Assembly (NCBI RefSeq): GCF_008107685.1
Contig: NZ_VIRF01000078.1
Span: 62,001-126,000 of the forward strand
DNA from: Novosphingobium sp. BW1
GTDB taxonomy: Bacteria; Pseudomonadota; Alphaproteobacteria; Sphingomonadales; Sphingomonadaceae
DNA: 64,000 bases
Direction: 5' to 3'
Part shown: positions 10,106 to 18,303 of the stretch, piece by piece
How positions within the stretch are numbered: the first letter of the stretch is position 1
How the letters are laid out: each line of letters begins with the position of its first letter
Notes under the pieces: generated by a model
The model's database searches: none
What the model was told of the DNA's origin: nothing
The model's input: only the letters and a program-made list of their open reading frames with translations
Program-made: the position numbers and the translations under genes

Positions 10106-11389
10106 GTGGGTGATCAGGTTAAACTGAGCGCGGACGGCGCGGATTTGGAATACCCCGTCCTCAAGGGCAGCGTGGGCCCGGAAGTCATCGACATCCGCAA
10201 GCTCTACGGCCAGACCGGTAAGTTCACCTTCGACCCCGGCTTCACGTCGACGGCAAGCTGCGAATCCGCACTGACCTACATCGACGGTGGCGAGGGCGTC
10301 CTGCTGCACCGCGGCTACCCGATCGGCCAGCTCGCCGAGAGCTCCTCGTTCATGGAAGTCAGCTACCTGCTGCTGAACGGCGAACTGCCGAGCCAGGACG
10401 AGCTCTCGAACTTCGAGTACACGATCAGCCGTCACACGATGATCCACGAGCAGCTGCGTCACTTCTACCAGGGCTTCCGCCGTGACGCGCACCCGATGGC
10501 CATCATGTGCGGCATCGTCGGCGCCTTGTCGGCGTTCTACCACGACTCGACCGACATCACCGACCCCGAGCAGCGCAAGATCGCCAGCCATCGCCTGATC
10601 GCGAAGATGCCGACGATTGCGGCAGCTGCCTACAAGTACTCGGTCGGTCAGCCGATGCTCTACCCGGACAACAACCTGTCCTACACGGGCAACTTCCTGC
10701 GCATGACCTTCGGCGTGCCCGCCGAGGAATACGAGGTGATCCCCGCCGTCGAAAAGGCGATGGACCGCATCTTCATCCTCCACGCCGACCACGAGCAGAA
10801 CGCCTCGACCTCGACTGTGCGTCTCGCTGGTTCGTCAGGCGCCAACCCGTTCGCGTGCATTGCGGCCGGTATCGCCTGCCTTTGGGGCCCGGCGCACGGC
10901 GGTGCGAACGAAGCGTGCCTCAACATGCTGCGTGAAATCGGCACCCCCGACCGCATTCCGCACTACATCGAACGCGCCAAGGACAAGAACGACCCGTTCC
11001 GTCTCATGGGCTTCGGTCACCGCGTGTACAAGAACTACGACCCGCGTGCGACGGTCATGCAGTCGACCGTGCGCGAAGTCTTCGAAGCACTCAATGTTCA
11101 GGACCCGCTCTTCGAGACCGCCATGCGCCTTGAGGAAATCGCCCTCAACGACCCGTACTTCATCGAGAAGAAGCTCTTCCCGAACGTCGACTTCTACTCG
11201 GGCGTCGTGCTCTCGGCGATCGGCTTCCCGACCGACATGTTCACCGTACTCTTCGCCCTTGCCCGCACCGTGGGCTGGGTTGCGCAGTGGAACGAAATGA
11301 TCTCGGATCCCGGCCAGCGCATCGGCCGTCCGCGTCAGCTCTACACCGGCCCCACGCAGCGCGACTATGTGCCGCTCAGCCAGCGTTGA
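10106..11389 (+). CDS. gltA: Citrate synthase (type II)
   Basis: A 427-residue citrate synthase condensing acetyl-CoA and oxaloacetate, the entry to the TCA cycle. The catalytic histidines are visible in [13 protein letters not shown] and [15 protein letters not shown]. The N-terminal extension before the core domain is typical of the hexameric Gram-negative type. The start is a GTG at 10106, supported by a strong Shine-Dalgarno AAGGAG (10091-10096) nine bases upstream that overlaps the gltX stop. A Rho-independent terminator follows at 11423. Confidence 0.97.
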
Positions 11390-11520: not shown

Positions 11521-12903
11521 TCAGTCGGCGTCTGGATCGGCGGGTACGGTCAGGATAAAACGCGCACCGCGCCCCGGTTCGCTCTCAACCGTGAGATCGC
11601 CGCCCATGGCCCGGGCGAGGCGACGTGAAATAAACAGGCCAAGGCCCGATCCACCATCGCCCACGCGCCCGAGACGCTCGAACTTGTCGAACACGCGCGC
11701 CTGCTGCTCAGGCGAGATGCCCGGCCCCTCGTCGGCCACGACGACCCGTGCGTTCGCCCTCTCACCTTCCAGGCGTATCCATATCTGCGAGCCTTCCGGA
11801 GAATACCGGATCGCATTGCCGATCAGGTTCAGAAGCACCTGCAGAACCCGCCGGAATTCCGCGATGGCCGGCAGCGTCTCGCCGGGCTCGGGTGCGATCA
11901 GCGCGATAGTCTTTTCCCGCGCTCGCACATTGAGGATCCCTGCCGCCTGACGCGAGACTTCGCCAAGGTCGATCTGGTCCGGCGCAGTCTGGAAGTCGCG
12001 GGACTCGACGACTTCGAGGTCCGAAAGATCGTCGAGCAGGTCGAGCAGAAGCTGCCCAGCACTCGAGATTTCACTGGCATAGCCTGCGTAGGCATCGGGC
12101 AAGGGGCCGGCCATGCGCGTGCGAATGGTTTCGGCATTGGCAATGATACGGGCAATGGGCTGGCGCAGAACCGGAGCCAGCTCCTGGCCGACCAGCCCCC
12201 GCCGATTGCTTGGCAGCGCCGCGCCCTCCAACGAAGTCGCTGCCGTGGGAGCCGGAACATTCGAAAGCAGCAGCAGTTCAAAGCCTGCCGGATCGAAGCC
12301 CGGCTGCATCGCCGGGAGCAGGCGCACCTCGAACGGACGCGAGGAGGCGGGCACGATTACCCGGCTGCCATCAAGCAGCCGCCAGTGCAGCGGTTGATGG
12401 TGACTAACATTCTCAGGGGGCAAAAAATCGGTCCAGAGCCGTCCGATGCCGTTCTCCATGGCCACGGCGAGCTCGCGCAATTCCGGACTTTCCGTCTCCA
12501 CGGCAAGAATACGTTGACCCGCGTCCAGACGCGCCGTCAATTCGGCCAGGTGGCGGTCGGTCGCGGCTCGCCGTGCCTCGCTAGCTGTGGAATCCTCGGC
12601 AGGCTGGGGCGCACTGCGCCAATTGCGAATGCGGATTTCGCAGCCCTGCCCACCATCGCGCGGTTCGGCTTCCACCCAAGCTGTGACGACCTCGCCGCCA
12701 TCATGCGCGGACACGGCGCGGGCGAGACGAAATCCATAGCGCCTGGCCTTTCGCACCAGTTCCATCAGTTCAGGAACCGCGATGGGGCCCGGCAACTGCC
12801 CGCCGCAACGAAGGTGCAGCCCGGCCAGCGGCTCGTCGGCGCTCAGCAGGCAGTCCTGGGCATCGCTTTGCCCGCGCGCGAGGATGGTGCCGTCAGAACG
12901 CAT
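11521..12903 (-). CDS. PAS/histidine-kinase-like protein lacking the phospho-acceptor histidine
   Basis: A 460-residue soluble protein. The N-terminal half contains one or two PAS-like segments (about residues 18-95 and 115-215). The rest resembles a DHp helix pair plus HATPase_c. The ATP-binding boxes are intact: N-box LLNLIGNAIRYSP, G1 DEGPGI, F-box VFDKFERLG and G2 GSGLGLFISRRLA. In the DHp the usual S-H-E-L-R-T-P-L reads A-P-V-L-R-Q-P-I, so proline (about residue 244) replaces the phospho-accepting histidine. There is no TM segment. ATG at 12903 overlaps the end of the upstream gene by 11 bp. It may be a pseudokinase or an ATP-dependent adaptor; autophosphorylation at the normal site is not possible. 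Confidence 0.8.
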   Translation of the reverse strand: MRSDGTILARGQSDAQDCLLSADEPLAGLHLRCGGQLPGPIAVPELMELVRKARRYGFRLARAVSAHDGGEVVTAWVEAEPRDGGQGCEIRIRNWRSAPQPAEDSTASEARRAATDRHLAELTARLDAGQRILAVETESPELRELAVAMENGIGRLWTDFLPPENVSHHQPLHWRLLDGSRVIVPASSRPFEVRLLPAMQPGFDPAGFELLLLSNVPAPTAATSLEGAALPSNRRGLVGQELAPVLRQPIARIIANAETIRTRMAGPLPDAYAGYASEISSAGQLLLDLLDDLSDLEVVESRDFQTAPDQIDLGEVSRQAAGILNVRAREKTIALIAPEPGETLPAIAEFRRVLQVLLNLIGNAIRYSPEGSQIWIRLEGERANARVVVADEGPGISPEQQARVFDKFERLGRVGDGGSGLGLFISRRLARAMGGDLTVESEPGRGARFILTVPADPDAD

Positions 12904-13864
12904 CGGTGCGGCCCGCAGCTGAATTGAGAATGGCCGCCGCGCGATCCGCGCCGATACTGCCGAAGCCTTCGGGGAGGAGGACATCGGGATGCAGAGCCAG
13001 AAACTCCTGCTCGATTGCCCCGGTTCTCAGCCCCGCAGCCCGAAGCGAGAGGGCCAATCGCGCCATCTGCCCCTCGTGTGTCGAGAAGATCACGTGATCG
13101 CGCTCCTGCCCGGAGGCGAGACCAAGGGCACTCAGGAAAAGGGCCAGTCCTGCGCTGCAGACGGACAGGGCGGCCTGCGCGCCCCCGCCCAGGGCCAGGA
13201 TAAGCTGCGCGGCCAGCCCGATACGGGACACCCCTTCATCGAAGCGCGCCCGAACTTCGGCTGCCGCCCGCTCGCAATCCGCTGTCCAGCGCGGATTTTC
13301 GCCGTCCAGCTGGACGAGAGCCATCAACGCGGCATGCAAAAGTTCGCCCGGCAGTTCGGTTAGCGGCAATCGCATGCGGCGCTGGGCCTGCCCCCACCGC
13401 GCCTGCGCGGCGAGGAAGCGCATGGCGGTGTCCTGGGTTTCCGGATCATTCGAGGAGATCAGGGCCTGCAGCAAAGGCGGTACGACGGGATCGAGAGCAT
13501 GGCGTGCCTGAAGGCGTTCGGTCAGCTGCCATTCGAGCGCAAGCCCGTGCAGGTGCGTAAGCAGCTGCGGATTGTCGATAAGAGCCTGCCCCAGAAGGGC
13601 CGTCTGCGATCCGTCATCCGCCAGTGCTTCAGGATCGCTTCGGCACGATGTGATCGCGGCCAGGAGCTGGCCCGCCAGATCTCCCACCATGCCCCGAACA
13701 CGCGCAAGGATCTCATCGCTGAAAACCGAGTTGTCCTGGGCGCTGATAAGGTGCCTGAGAATGGGCAACATCGTTTGCGCCGAGGCATCACCTCGCGCAA
13801 GCTCCTCACCCATCATGCTTTCCAGCTGACGGGCACCATCCCTGAAGGCTGCCTGATCGTTCAT
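12893..13864 (-). CDS. Helical repeat-like protein, possibly DUF2336 family
   Basis: A 323-residue soluble, mostly alpha-helical protein rich in Ala, Leu and Gln, with no signal peptide. The helical hairpin pattern, and stretches such as DNSVFSDEILARVRGMVGDL and the C-terminal FSTHEGQMARLALSLRAAGL, fit the HEAT-like DUF2336 proteins of alphaproteobacteria, though I assign this only tentatively. DUF2336 members are often found near or fused to two-component proteins, which suits the adjacent kinase-like gene that it overlaps by 11 bp. No catalytic motif is seen. Confidence 0.68.
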   Translation of the reverse strand: MNDQAAFRDGARQLESMMGEELARGDASAQTMLPILRHLISAQDNSVFSDEILARVRGMVGDLAGQLLAAITSCRSDPEALADDGSQTALLGQALIDNPQLLTHLHGLALEWQLTERLQARHALDPVVPPLLQALISSNDPETQDTAMRFLAAQARWGQAQRRMRLPLTELPGELLHAALMALVQLDGENPRWTADCERAAAEVRARFDEGVSRIGLAAQLILALGGGAQAALSVCSAGLALFLSALGLASGQERDHVIFSTHEGQMARLALSLRAAGLRTGAIEQEFLALHPDVLLPEGFGSIGADRAAAILNSAAGRTDAF

Positions 13865-13899
13865 GCCATATGCCTAAACCGGCCTTGGTTAAATCGAGG

Positions 13900-15111
13900 T
13901 TATACTCCCGCTCGTTTCGACAGGACAAGTTCGGCGACGAGAATCGACAGGGCAAGCACCTGGACGACGCCGAGAACCTGCCCAAAAGTCGCACCCAGTG
14001 CGAGGAGCAAGGCGAGCACGGCCCGATCACTGATGAGAGCCCCGGGCCATCGCCCCAGAATCCTTGGCGCCAGAGCAATGACGAGAAAAAGCGATACCGG
14101 CGCATAGAGCCAGTGCAGGACGTCCTGACCGGGCAGACGCTCGACAGCACGCAAGACGAGACAGGCCAGAACAGCATCGACCAGCCAAACCATCGCGTCG
14201 GCGCGCTCGATCGCCGGAACAGTTTCGCCCAGCGGCCTGCGCTCGGCAGCCCGCACCTTGCGCCCGCCCTCGATGAGTATCCAGGCCAGACCGGCAACGC
14301 AAAAGCCTGCCCCCGGCAAGCCGAACCATCCCAGCAGGCCAGCCAGTGCGAGAAGAACCAGCGCCGCCGCACTGACGACGTTGCTCGCTCGGCCGACCTG
14401 AAGCAACGTCGCTCCGAACGCGATTGCACCATACTGGGCCAGGAGCCTGCCCGGCGACTGTCCGCGACCGGCCGTGAAATGCCGATGCAGCCACTCCTCC
14501 TCCAAGCCGATCGCATCGGCTTCGGAGGTGACAAGCCGCCAGTTCGCGCCTCCGCACACGGCAGCCGGCACATCGCGCATGGGCGTACCTGACTGCAACG
14601 CAAGGCGTGTCAGGATCGAGATCGTATCACTTTCCTCGGGCACCTCGCGCAGTCTGTCCACCACCCCCCCCGGCAACCGCATTAGACCGGCGGCACAGCG
14701 ATTGAGGTCGATCCGTTCGTATCCGGCGGTCCGGGCGCCTTCGACGGGCTGCACCAGAACGCAGCTGCGCATGTCATCCAGAAGTGGCAGAGCCACGTCC
14801 GGATCAACGAATAAGCCGTCGGTGATGACGAAAAGTTCGTCCGCTTCGCCCACTTGGGCGGGTACGTCATGCGGCCCGGAAACAATCCTGAACTGCACGC
14901 CCGCATCTTGGGCTGCGCGCTCCAGATCCTGGACGTCCGACGATTTGCCTGCGGCAAGGCACACGATGCGATGGCACTTCAGGGCAAGGACAAGACCAAG
15001 CTGATGCTTGGCGAGACTTGCTCCAGCCACCCGCAGACCGGCGCGCGGCGGGGTCTGGCCGCCACCGCTTGGCTCCGTCATCGATAACAAGGCTATGCGC
15101 AGAACACTCAC
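13900..15111 (-). CDS. Nucleotidyltransferase-like membrane protein of unknown function
   Basis: A 403-residue two-part protein. Residues about 1-210 look like a GT-A/nucleotidyltransferase fold: a P-x-A-G-L-R-V-A-G-A-S-L-A-K loop about residues 22-36, reminiscent of the GxGxRL...K loop, then DELFVITDGLFVDPD near residue 95, where substrate-binding acidic residues are expected. Residues about 220-400 hold five or six hydrophobic helices. The arrangement suggests a membrane-bound sugar-nucleotide or phospho-alcohol transferase, but the canonical loop is altered and activity is uncertain. It lies in the minus-strand cluster with the Hpt-like and kinase-like genes. Confidence 0.68.
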   Translation of the reverse strand: MSVLRIALLSMTEPSGGGQTPPRAGLRVAGASLAKHQLGLVLALKCHRIVCLAAGKSSDVQDLERAAQDAGVQFRIVSGPHDVPAQVGEADELFVITDGLFVDPDVALPLLDDMRSCVLVQPVEGARTAGYERIDLNRCAAGLMRLPGGVVDRLREVPEESDTISILTRLALQSGTPMRDVPAAVCGGANWRLVTSEADAIGLEEEWLHRHFTAGRGQSPGRLLAQYGAIAFGATLLQVGRASNVVSAAALVLLALAGLLGWFGLPGAGFCVAGLAWILIEGGRKVRAAERRPLGETVPAIERADAMVWLVDAVLACLVLRAVERLPGQDVLHWLYAPVSLFLVIALAPRILGRWPGALISDRAVLALLLALGATFGQVLGVVQVLALSILVAELVLSKRAGV

Positions 15112-15168
15112 TCCACCGAGGGCGTCCTTCTAGGCCCCGCACCGCCGGGTGCCAAGCGTGAGGCGGCA

Positions 15169-15471
15169 TTACGAATCGGGAAAACGCTGCAAATAGTCAC
15201 GTAGACGCCGTAGGACAGCGGGCTCGCCCGGAGCCGCATCCAGCGCTTCGAGCGCAAGAACGTGCAGATCGCCGGAATGAAAACTTGCCGCAAGCCCCTG
15301 CAAACGCGTGGCTGCGAGGGTCCAGTTCCCGTCGCAGCGGGACCGCTCCAAAAGATCCACCTGACGTGATACACTTTCGCGATAGGACTGGCGCAGCTGC
15401 GCCAGCAGTTCGGGATCGCCCCCCGCCGCCGCCGCGAACGTTGCTTCCAAGGCTCCGGTCTCATACGCCAT
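15169..15471 (-). CDS. Hpt-domain-like protein without the conserved histidine
   Basis: A 100-residue single-domain protein resembling histidine phosphotransfer domains. The segment LQGLAASFHSGDL (from about residue 57) aligns with the canonical H-x-L-K-G-x-A-x-x-x-G-A-x-x-L helix. However, the position of the phosphorylatable histidine is Thr55 (T-R-L-Q-G). It could still bind receiver or kinase domains. It is the first gene of the minus-strand cluster and diverges from the 920-residue coiled-coil gene across a 69 bp gap that probably holds both promoters. Confidence 0.7.
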   Translation of the reverse strand: MAYETGALEATFAAAAGGDPELLAQLRQSYRESVSRQVDLLERSRCDGNWTLAATRLQGLAASFHSGDLHVLALEALDAAPGEPAVLRRLRDYLQRFPDS

Positions 15472-15540
15472 ATCCCCAGATTACCGAACCAAGTCTTAAT
15501 CCGGGGTTTCCTGAGACCCCCGGCGTGGTATCGTAGAGCG

Positions 15541-18303
15541 ATGTCTGGAGATAGCAGGATCATATCGTTCGGCGGTGCCTCCACCGAGGACAGCGCAACG
15601 CAGGCCAAGGCCGACGACGCAACCCGGCTGCGCGATGCGCTTGCGCCCTCCAGCGATACGGAGGACGCCGCAGCCGCTTCGGATTGGGATGATGCCTGGA
15701 TCGGCAGCGGCGAAACGAGGAGCGAAAGCAGCGATGCGCAACGTCCCGAAGGCTGGATCGCCCCGACCCTGGCGGGCCTCGGCCTCCTGGCGTGGAGCGG
15801 TCTCTTCCTCGCCGCCCACTGGACCTATTTCCAGGCTGACTTCACCCTCGCGGCAGTTCCCGCCCTCATCAGCCAATGGTGCATTCCCCCGCTGTTGATC
15901 GGCATCGTATGGTTGCTCGCGCTTCGCCATTCCACGCGTGAGGGCAAGCGCTTCGGGGACATCGCCAGCACACTCTCGCTCGAAAGCGAGCGCCTCGAAC
16001 GCCGCCTCCTCAGCGTCAATCGGGAACTTAGTCTTGCCCGCGAGTTCGTCGCTGCACAGTCGCGTGATCTCGAAGCACTGGGCCGTCTGGCGTCGGAGCG
16101 ACTGTCCGGCAATGCGCTGAGACTGCAAGAGCTTATCGAAGAGAACGGCGAACGCCTCGAAACGATAGGCGCAGTCAGTACCACGGCCCTCGACAACATG
16201 GAAAAGTTGCGCGGCCAGCTTCCCGTGATTGCCAGCTCGGCCAAGGACGTAACCAGCAACATCGGCAACGCCGGGCGGACGGCGCGCTCCCAAATCGAGA
16301 ACATGATCGCCGGCTTCCATCGGCTGAACGAATTCGGACAGGCGAACGAACGCCAGATTGCCTCCGTGCGCACTGCCGTCGATGCCGCTCTCGCCCAGTT
16401 CGCCGGTCAGTGCGAGGATCTTGAAGTCCTTGCCCGCCAGCGGTTCGAAGCCTTGGCCGAGAGAGGCCAGGAATTCCGGAGCGAACTAGAGCGCCACGAA
16501 GCCGACGCTCTTGCGGCGATCCGCGCCCGCTCGGCCGCTCTGCAAAGCGAGCTTCACAGGACCCGCGAACAGCTGGACGAGAGCGAGGCCGCTACCCTCA
16601 CCTCGCTGCGCGCGCGCCTTTCCGCACTGCGCGAGGAATGCGGCGTGGTCGGTCGCAGCATCACAGATGCCCAGGGCCAGGCCGCCCGGAGCGTGCAGGA
16701 AAGCTTCGAGACACTCAAGGCCGAGCACGAGACCGCGCACGACCTGCTCGTCGCCGCGCACGAGACCACTCTTGATCAGCTTTCCCAACGCATCGAGGCG
16801 CTCGGAACGGACGCGGCTCGCACCGAAGACCGGATTTCCTCCGCCCAGCAGACCGTGGTCGCAAGCTTTACAGACCGTCTCTCCGAAGTCTGCGCGCAGG
16901 CGGACGCCGCCTTTGCACGACTGAAAAACCGCGACGGCCAGTTCGCCACCGAGGCGAGCGAACGCCACCAGCGCCAACTCGAACAGGAGCGCCATGCGCT
17001 GGCCCATATCGAGCATATGCTGGTCGAACTCGACAACGCTGTGGCCGAGAGGCTCGAAGGGCATCGCCACCAGGCCGAAGCGCTGAGTGAACGTGCGCGC
17101 AGCGTGACCTCGCAACTCGAACAGTTCGATGCGCGCCTGCGCTCCATTGCAACGCAAAGCGCCGATGCCGAAGGACGCCTTGCGACATCGCTGCATGGTC
17201 TGGCTGAAAACCTTTCCGCGAGCCAAACCTCGCTTTCGGCCGCTGATCGCGACGTTGCCAAGCTGACGGACGACAGCCTGCGCCTGCTCGATCTCCTGCG
17301 TGCCAGCTCCAGCCAGGCGCAGAACGAGCTGCCCCAGGCGCTCACCCATTCCGAGGAGCAACTCGACCGGATCGACACCGCGATCAACGAGGTGCGCGGC
17401 AAGCTTGCGGAGTCGTCCACGAGCGGTCAAGCACTCTCCGAGGCGATCCTGCAATCCGGTACGTCACTGGACAGGCTGCACGAACACCTTGTCGAGGCTC
17501 AGGCCTCCATCGCCGAGGGCACCACCGATCACGCGCAGCGCCTTGAGCACCTCCAGCGCAGCCTGACCGAGATCGAAGGCACGTTGCTCCAGAACGCCGA
17601 GCATGCGCGCGGCGAACTGACGGAGGCGATTAAAGATCTGCGCCAGAATTTCGACGAGGCGATCTCCGATATCGAAACTGGCGCGCCTGCCCGCATCGAT
17701 AGCGTCACCCAGACGCTGGGTGAGGAAAGCGGCAAGGCCATTGACAAGGCCATGCGGACCACCGCGGCCGAAATCTCGGGACAGCTCGAGCAGGCCGTTG
17801 CCCATGCAACGGGTGTCAGCCGCGAGGCCACGGCCCAGCTGCGCGAGCAGATGGAAAAGGTTACAGAACTGGTCGGTAACCTCGAAGCAAGGCTCGACGA
17901 AGCCCGTGAACGGGCAAGCGAGCAGGTCAACAATGACTTTGCCCGCCGGGCCGCGCTCATCACGGAATCTCTCAACTCCAACGCCATCGACATCGCCACC
18001 GCTATGTCGAGCGAGGTCTCCGACACGGCCTGGGCTTCCTATCTGCGCGGTGATCGCGGGATCTTCACCCGACGTGCCGTCACCCTTATCGATTCAAGCG
18101 AAGCGAAGGCGATCCAGCAGACCTTCGAGAGCGACGACGCTTTCCGCGAACACGTGAGCCGTTACATCCACGACTTCGAATCTCTCCTGCGCCAGGTCCT
18201 CTCGACCCGCGATGGCAATGCGATGGGGGTGACCTTGCTCTCCTCGGACATGGGTAAGCTATACGTGGCCCTCGCCCAGGCCATCGAACGCCTGCGCAAT
18301 TGA
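15541..18303 (+). CDS. Large two-TM coiled-coil protein, conserved in alphaproteobacteria
   Basis: A 920-residue protein. An acidic N-terminal segment (about 1-75) precedes two TM helices at about residues 78-97 and 106-126. A very long heptad-rich coiled coil follows (about 140-800, rich in Glu, Ala, Leu, Gln and Arg). A conserved C-terminal domain of about 90 residues contains YLRGDRGIFTRRAVTLIDSS, SRYIHDFESLLRQVL and LLSSDMGKLYVALAQAIERLR. Similar proteins are often labelled ATPase or kinesin-like, but no Walker motif is seen. The shape suggests an inner-membrane scaffold, perhaps for polarity, division or the envelope. A hairpin terminator follows the stop. Confidence 0.85.
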   Translation: MSGDSRIISFGGASTEDSATQAKADDATRLRDALAPSSDTEDAAAASDWDDAWIGSGETRSESSDAQRPEGWIAPTLAGLGLLAWSGLFLAAHWTYFQADFTLAAVPALISQWCIPPLLIGIVWLLALRHSTREGKRFGDIASTLSLESERLERRLLSVNRELSLAREFVAAQSRDLEALGRLASERLSGNALRLQELIEENGERLETIGAVSTTALDNMEKLRGQLPVIASSAKDVTSNIGNAGRTARSQIENMIAGFHRLNEFGQANERQIASVRTAVDAALAQFAGQCEDLEVLARQRFEALAERGQEFRSELERHEADALAAIRARSAALQSELHRTREQLDESEAATLTSLRARLSALREECGVVGRSITDAQGQAARSVQESFETLKAEHETAHDLLVAAHETTLDQLSQRIEALGTDAARTEDRISSAQQTVVASFTDRLSEVCAQADAAFARLKNRDGQFATEASERHQRQLEQERHALAHIEHMLVELDNAVAERLEGHRHQAEALSERARSVTSQLEQFDARLRSIATQSADAEGRLATSLHGLAENLSASQTSLSAADRDVAKLTDDSLRLLDLLRASSSQAQNELPQALTHSEEQLDRIDTAINEVRGKLAESSTSGQALSEAILQSGTSLDRLHEHLVEAQASIAEGTTDHAQRLEHLQRSLTEIEGTLLQNAEHARGELTEAIKDLRQNFDEAISDIETGAPARIDSVTQTLGEESGKAIDKAMRTTAAEISGQLEQAVAHATGVSREATAQLREQMEKVTELVGNLEARLDEARERASEQVNNDFARRAALITESLNSNAIDIATAMSSEVSDTAWASYLRGDRGIFTRRAVTLIDSSEAKAIQQTFESDDAFREHVSRYIHDFESLLRQVLSTRDGNAMGVTLLSSDMGKLYVALAQAIERLRN

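Follow-up and report, generated by a model that had tools for sequence, protein, structure and literature searches.

The DNA analyzed here is a stretch of 64,000 nucleotides from Novosphingobium sp. BW1 (contig NZ_VIRF01000078.1, positions 62,001 to 126,000), called the window in the following. It contains a divergent cluster of five genes, in which a large membrane protein that looks like a cell-pole landmark stands back to back with four genes on the other strand, three of them encoding degenerate relatives of enzymes. An initial annotation, made from the letters alone, had described five open reading frames (ORFs) at this place, four on the minus and one on the plus strand, diverging from a shared gap of 69 bp. 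All of this was confirmed, and the cluster consists of the following features.

15541 to 18303, plus strand: candidate landmark (COIL), a TipN/GPR-type membrane-anchored helical protein of 920 amino acids (aa), assigned from its membrane segments, helical body and C-terminal domain
15757 to 15918, plus strand: the two predicted membrane helices of this protein, residues 73-91 and 108-126 (hydropathy)
17878 to 18300, plus strand: its C-terminal domain of about 140 aa, the best-conserved part (profile search, hhalign)
15472 to 15540, no strand: divergent intergenic region of 69 bp
15169 to 15471, minus strand: Hpt-fold protein of 100 residues with Thr55 in place of the phospho-His (profile, alignment, tree)
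13900 to 15111, minus strand: degenerate IPCT-DIPPS-type membrane protein with a nucleotidyltransferase fold and membrane helices, the CDP-alcohol transferase core being absent
12893 to 13864, minus strand: DUF2336-like, all-helical protein (Pfam matches of relatives, predicted model)
11521 to 12984, minus strand: histidine-kinase-like protein that retains its ATP site and has Pro271 at the phospho-His position (Pfam, alignment)

For the comparisons, genome families are named by f-numbers in all counts. The window's family is f1, which we take to be the Sphingomonadaceae, with the Sphingomonadales presumably as its order. The f1 set comprises 113 genomes, for 106 of which landmark positions are listed; the order sample holds 196 genomes and the class sample 289 alphaproteobacterial genomes, f1 included.

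The plus-strand protein was detected in 182 of the 196 genomes of the order at E<=0.001, and all 14 misses fall outside f1. The two membrane segments proposed by the initial annotation were found by hydropathy, and they are a general property of the relatives: with a threshold of 1.3 two separate N-terminal hydrophobic segments appear in 37 of 39 rows from the order and in 21 of 22 rows from elsewhere in the class, and with a threshold of 1.0 they appear in all rows. The predicted helical nature of the body rests on weak SMC and apolipoprotein Pfam matches. The apolipoprotein match of the window protein (PF01442, E 3.2e-8) reaches 33.9 bits, below the cut-off of 90; one of two 2,000-aa relatives gave no match to this model and the other one of 2.1e-5, also below the cut-off. 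Conservation peaks in roughly the last 120-140 residues, and the C-terminal profile A1, built from 28 sequences, recognizes this domain in 107 of the 289 class genomes, within ORFs of very different length. Such an ORF, L135:4879-13690, encodes 2,743 aa and combines this domain with two membrane segments; its neighbor on the opposite strand, at a distance of about 100 bp, is a His-bearing Hpt.

These properties resemble those of known polar proteins. According to the excerpts that we cite, TipN has 882 aa (PMC13170164) and is a new-pole marker that affects the behavior of ParA and PopZ (PMC10127582). A similarity to TipN is reported for GPR (PMC8546619), whose C terminus is essential and which has apolipoprotein-like regions and, at its N-terminal end, two membrane domains (PMC8262873); its homologue RgsE possesses two membrane helices (PMC7327166). 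The 920-residue protein resembles TipN in length, and it shares with GPR and RgsE, the growth pole proteins of the Rhizobiales, the two predicted N-terminal helices and perhaps the helical, apolipoprotein-like body; the latter two proteins are, however, given as about twice as long (2,115 and 2,089 aa). Distant RgsE homologues are named in the excerpted text for the Emcibacterales and Rhodospirillales, and not for the window's order (PMC7327166).

A link to TipN also comes from two f70 genomes. They are the only two of the 289 with a DivJ equivalog match at E<=1e-110; their scores of 443 and 466 bits lie below the cut-off of 1000, and the next best among 50 genomes has 319 bits. From these sub-cut-off scores we infer that both are Caulobacteraceae-like. 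The sole A1 match in each is a membrane protein of 833 or 860 aa, whose C-terminus aligns with the A1 domain (hhalign 95.1%, E 3.4e-8, 18% identity). The f12 genomes had also been considered as Caulobacteraceae and were dropped, their relatives being Rhizomicrobium and other Alphaproteobacteria. The large membrane protein of the initial annotation therefore stands, while its TipN/GPR-like architecture and the shared C-terminal domain had been overlooked.

The small protein that diverges from the candidate landmark is not recognizable by itself. Searched alone, it matched no Pfam Hpt model, gave weak matches to TetR C-terminal and HrpJ models instead, and had no Hpt among its PDB matches. The family gave a clearer answer. 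PF01627 is matched weakly by 11 of 19 family Hpts (best 2.1e-4), the family profile aligns with canonical Hpts at 94.5% in hhalign (E 7.8e-8), and a mixed profile that includes the outgroup Hpts finds 2ooc as its best PDB match (E 1.3e-10). In the alignment of the 19 f1 copies (the loci L044 and L048 have no Hpt to align) one Trp and one Phe are invariant, and His is found at the active position in none; in the window protein Thr55 occupies this position. An Hpt-like protein without its phospho-histidine, as annotated from the single sequence, is thus borne out by the family profile.

Outside f1 the same neighbor is intact. Eight of 18 loci from other families of the order carry an Hpt divergent from the landmark gene, all eight of these Hpts keep the phospho-His, and canonical landmark-side copies from outgroups matched the Pfam Hpt model in 10 of 10 cases. 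Counted by genome, the Hpt lies beside the landmark gene in 8 of the 20 outgroup genomes of the order that were checked. Among 20 class outgroup loci, hand-chosen from other families, seven have an Hpt upstream on the opposite strand, about 0.1 to 1.2 kb away, with the motif HTLKG, HSLKG or HTIKG (families f12, f17, f77, f128 and f130). At an eighth locus (L138:4726-12314) the place is taken by a hybrid kinase ORF that matches the Hpt profile; it immediately precedes, on the same strand, the ORF of a landmark-type protein of 1,630 aa. The Hpt-landmark pair therefore occurs beyond f1, with the His intact in the copies read, a point that the initial annotation had missed. The canonical Hpt of L133, the only landmark-side copy searched alone, had ShpA (2ooc) as its sole PDB match at E<=0.01. 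ShpA is described in an excerpt as the phosphotransferase of the ShkA-ShpA-TacA relay (PMC7010744); in the window protein, by contrast, this site holds no His, and searched by itself the protein did not retrieve ShpA. The His-less copies form one clade (support 100/98) in a tree built from 32 Hpt sequences, and because of this we conclude that the His was probably lost a single time, in the common ancestor of the window's family. We had also suspected that Caulobacter has an Hpt next to the landmark, which is unsupported: at the two Caulobacteraceae-like loci neither the Hpt profile nor those of the kinase, the DUF2336-like protein or the membrane protein gave a match, which distinguishes these loci from the window. 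As a side observation, the Hpt matches in genus g2 (for example G047:C1:1749292-1749585) contain one internal stop in many genomes, perhaps an early end of the protein.

The kinase-like protein shows a comparable loss. The HATPase_c domain is matched with E 4.8e-31 in the window protein and is found in 19 of 20 members, and the HisKA match of the window protein stays below the cut-off. One of the 20 aligned rows, L049, was dropped as a paralogue. In the remaining 19 orthologues the phospho-His is absent throughout, the residue being P (15), S, R, D or Q; in the window Pro271 stands where active relatives have His. The ATP site is kept, with the G2 box in 19/19 and the G1 box in 18/19; N386 and N390 are nearly invariant, and the strict N-box pattern fits just 4/19. 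A kinase that has lost its phospho-histidine and retained its ATP site, as first annotated, is hence what the family displays. The PAS domain assigned to it at the same time was not found, there being no PAS model among the families matched by the 20 members. The start of the gene is probably nearer 12903, where its relatives begin (alignment judged by eye).

Related kinases are found in 15 outgroup genomes of the order (E 9e-61 to 1e-70), and the five that were read are all PAS kinases, each with PAS domains and the motif SHELRTPLN or SHELKTPLN. Within f1, 104 of 113 genomes gave a kinase match at E<=1e-60, that of G053 being doubtful. We also considered DivL, which according to an excerpt regulates CckA (PMC9430884). 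The structure 4q20 is among the lower-ranked matches of the window kinase, and both proteins combine a kinase fold and an ATP-type domain with the lack of a phospho-His. However, DivL was rejected as an identity because a DivL-like gene exists elsewhere in this genome; the H-box of its product has Tyr where the window kinase has Pro, and 4q20 is its sole match at E<=1e-20. The dropped paralogue (L049:5690-7330, 547 aa, near the landmark gene) is the reverse of the window kinase: its His is kept, HisKA is matched and HATPase_c is not. A DUF2336-kinase fusion in this ORF was considered and rejected, as Pfam shows HisKA alone.

The membrane protein turned out to be a third degenerate enzyme, which had escaped the initial annotation, although the nucleotidyltransferase-like N-terminal part named there is supported by structure prediction. 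In the AlphaFold model (mean predicted local distance difference test, pLDDT, 89.1) the top match is 4mnd, an IPCT-DIPPS enzyme, both in Foldseek (E 1.2e-8) and in VIA (Z 24.0, root-mean-square deviation 4.1). The predicted fold thus agrees with that of 4mnd over 362 residues, but a motif core is missing from the sequence. None of the 18 aligned copies, nor any of the three relocated ones (L216-L218), contains DGxxAR, which we take to be the core of the motif of CDP-alcohol phosphotransferases. Two relatives from the same order, L213 and L215 (L213:359-1846 and L215:366-1748), keep this core and score above the PF01066 cut-off with 3e-9; another relative, L214 of family f2, does not have it. 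The full-length motif pattern misses L213 and L215 too, so that the core alone discriminates, and a looser pattern gave a single match in this set of 18 copies, at L050, which we judged to be chance. Of the 113 f1 genomes, 110 gave a match to the membrane protein; outside f1 there were ten, with 2e-15 as the best.

Of the kinase, the membrane protein and the DUF2336-like protein, the last is the most variable. Its predicted model is all helical (pLDDT 90.9). PF10098 is matched by 1 of 15 relatives (1.1e-6), and the protein encoded at the corresponding place of L216 exceeds the cut-off with 51.8 bits, but the window protein itself gave no match, and none was found in its genome. The identity given in the initial annotation is therefore carried by the relatives, and we regard the window protein as a divergent DUF2336-like protein. 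Neither Foldseek at E<=0.001 nor VIA at Z>=5 returned a match for the model, so that no named fold can be assigned, and a new fold is not thereby shown. The family profile matched 59 f1 genomes and, weakly, one outside. The slot of this gene in the operon is occupied by an ORF of 301-360 aa without significant match to this profile at L046, L047, L050, L217 and L218; at L048 the kinase and membrane genes lie 23 bp apart, and the slot is empty. DUF2336 was found in no paper of the literature collection searched.

With the families defined, the gene order could be compared. In 90 of the 105 f1 genomes in which both positions are available, the membrane gene is located within 6 kb upstream of the landmark gene, in divergent orientation. 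On the 3' side of the membrane gene the kinase follows, on the same strand and within 2.5 kb, in 102/102 compared genomes, or in 102/103 when G053 is counted as the single miss (its kinase and membrane-gene matches are weak and on different contigs); in G105 and G155 the membrane gene was matched and the kinase was not. The DUF2336-like gene lies within 6 kb of the landmark gene in 58 of 59 genomes with both, and the Hpt is divergent from it within 5 kb in 74 of 106 (G083 is a partial match). The genes are hence linked across many genomes rather than scattered, and the conserved order makes chance untenable as an explanation. In the 15 genomes in which the membrane gene lies elsewhere, the kinase has moved along in 15 of 15, while the Hpt stayed by the landmark in 13 and had no match in the other two. 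We therefore distinguish two modules, which are neighbors in most genomes though not in all: the Hpt with the landmark, and the trio of membrane protein, DUF2336-like protein and kinase. The linkage noticed at the outset thus holds, and the single five-gene unit that it had suggested does not. The membrane gene and the operon kinase are matched strongly in f1 only, where the Hpt copies read lack the His; the trio is therefore an f1 operon, its middle gene being the most variable, and the Hpt-landmark pair also exists outside f1.

We consider it somewhat more probable than the reverse that the cluster pairs a polar landmark with a divergent operon of non-catalytic binding partners acting at the pole. 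In this reading the plus-strand protein would be the f1 member of the TipN/GPR/RgsE group, marking or building the cell pole. The products of the operon would most likely have given up the signaling and lipid chemistry of their ancestors and would act by binding. The pseudo-kinase, a relative of His-bearing PAS sensor kinases, could bind in an ATP-gated manner; the pseudo-Hpt could serve the landmark or receiver domains as a docking site or decoy; the pseudo-enzyme of IPCT-DIPPS fold could be a membrane anchor or ligand sensor, and the DUF2336-like protein a helical adaptor. Together they may position or tune a cell-cycle or polarity phosphorelay at the pole, comparable to what the pseudo-kinase DivL does for CckA. 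Polar location, binding, gating by ATP or a membrane ligand and the cell-cycle link are what we infer beyond the folds established by profile or prediction, the missing residues, the gene linkage and the one His-less Hpt clade. That the trio is limited to the same family as the His-less Hpt is our main reason for proposing a joint function. The data suggest that old signaling enzymes were turned into binding partners. The stricter version, in which a phosphorelay node beside the landmark became a catalysis-free scaffold, with pseudo-Hpt, pseudo-kinase and pseudo-phospholipid enzyme forming a polar complex that regulates by ATP- and ligand-gated binding alone, is one that we put forward tentatively, at a little under even chances.

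Several observations weigh against the pairing of landmark and binding partners. No Hpt was found beside the landmark in 32 of 106 f1 genomes; 26 of these have no Hpt match, and 6 have weak matches elsewhere only. As the trio is also away from the landmark in 15 of 105, the partnership of operon and landmark is not obligatory. The missing motif of the membrane protein may leave room for a different chemistry. The putative kinship with TipN and GPR is drawn through published descriptions and the presumed Caulobacteraceae-like proteins; the f70 profile is thin, with two sequences and the 18% domain identity, and one of these two proteins (L191) has a single membrane segment above 1.3.

The strongest competitor holds that two independent systems merely share a neighborhood, the adjacency reflecting a conserved chromosome order around gltX-gltA and rnj-coaX. 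The 15 relocations, in which membrane gene and kinase traveled together and the Hpt mostly remained, are what this explanation would predict, and the flanking genes are indeed conserved in the 20 family loci as well (gltA in 16, gltX in 15, rnj and coaX in 18). Yet 90 of 105 genomes have the two modules side by side in divergent orientation, and the trio and the His loss of the Hpt coincide in f1, which makes this explanation unlikely in our eyes, though to be taken seriously. Less probable again is an operon that serves as a membrane-ligand sensor, in which a non-catalytic nucleotide or CDP-alcohol pocket would signal via the DUF2336-like protein and the ATP-binding kinase to polar envelope growth; the nearly full-length match to the IPCT-DIPPS fold and the kinase directly downstream of the membrane gene in 102/103 genomes speak for it, but the pocket is putative. 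That Hpt and kinase still transfer phosphate via atypical residues, as proposed for Caulobacter HmrB, which according to an excerpt is without HxxKG yet needs two other histidines for its function (PMC11481889), is very improbable, since the His65 that the window Hpt has ten residues past the usual site is present in just 11/19 family Hpts with no other Hpt column exceeding three His, and the kinase columns with His in at least 10 of 19 are only residue 200 (13/19, outside the kinase core) and residue 312 (18/19, Leu in the window), so that alternative phospho-histidines were rejected as not conserved.

To our knowledge, most work on TipN/GPR-type landmarks has dealt with Caulobacter and the Rhizobiales. 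The initial annotation knew of no described system of this composition, and our literature search likewise found no report of the gene set; the type of landmark is known, and the apparently catalysis-free operon beside it seems to be new. If the pairing of landmark and binding partners is true, a protein present in 182 of 196 genomes of the order would offer a tractable new model for how the pole is set, and its neighbors a model for pseudo-enzymes that take over from phosphotransfer. The landmark-side Hpt, which carries the His in the outgroup copies read and lacks it in those from f1, is a natural experiment on such a takeover; through it, the landmark is connected with ShpA-like phosphotransferases in several families of the Alphaproteobacteria.

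Beyond the cluster, gltX and gltA lie on one side, and DUF1467 (PF07330), the RNase J-like rnj and coaX on the other; the names gltX, gltA, rnj and coaX are our own assignments from the sequences. The 69-bp shared promoter contains no site of the kind TTAA-N7-TTAA, which we take to be the CtrA-type motif, and the two such sites in the window correspond to chance level. A tRNA scan of the window found none. The citrate synthase gene (window 10106-11389) adjoins the kinase end of the operon, and, in what may be a coincidence, the citrate synthase of Caulobacter is reported to regulate the cell cycle, in work for which tipN mutants were employed (PMC7083601).

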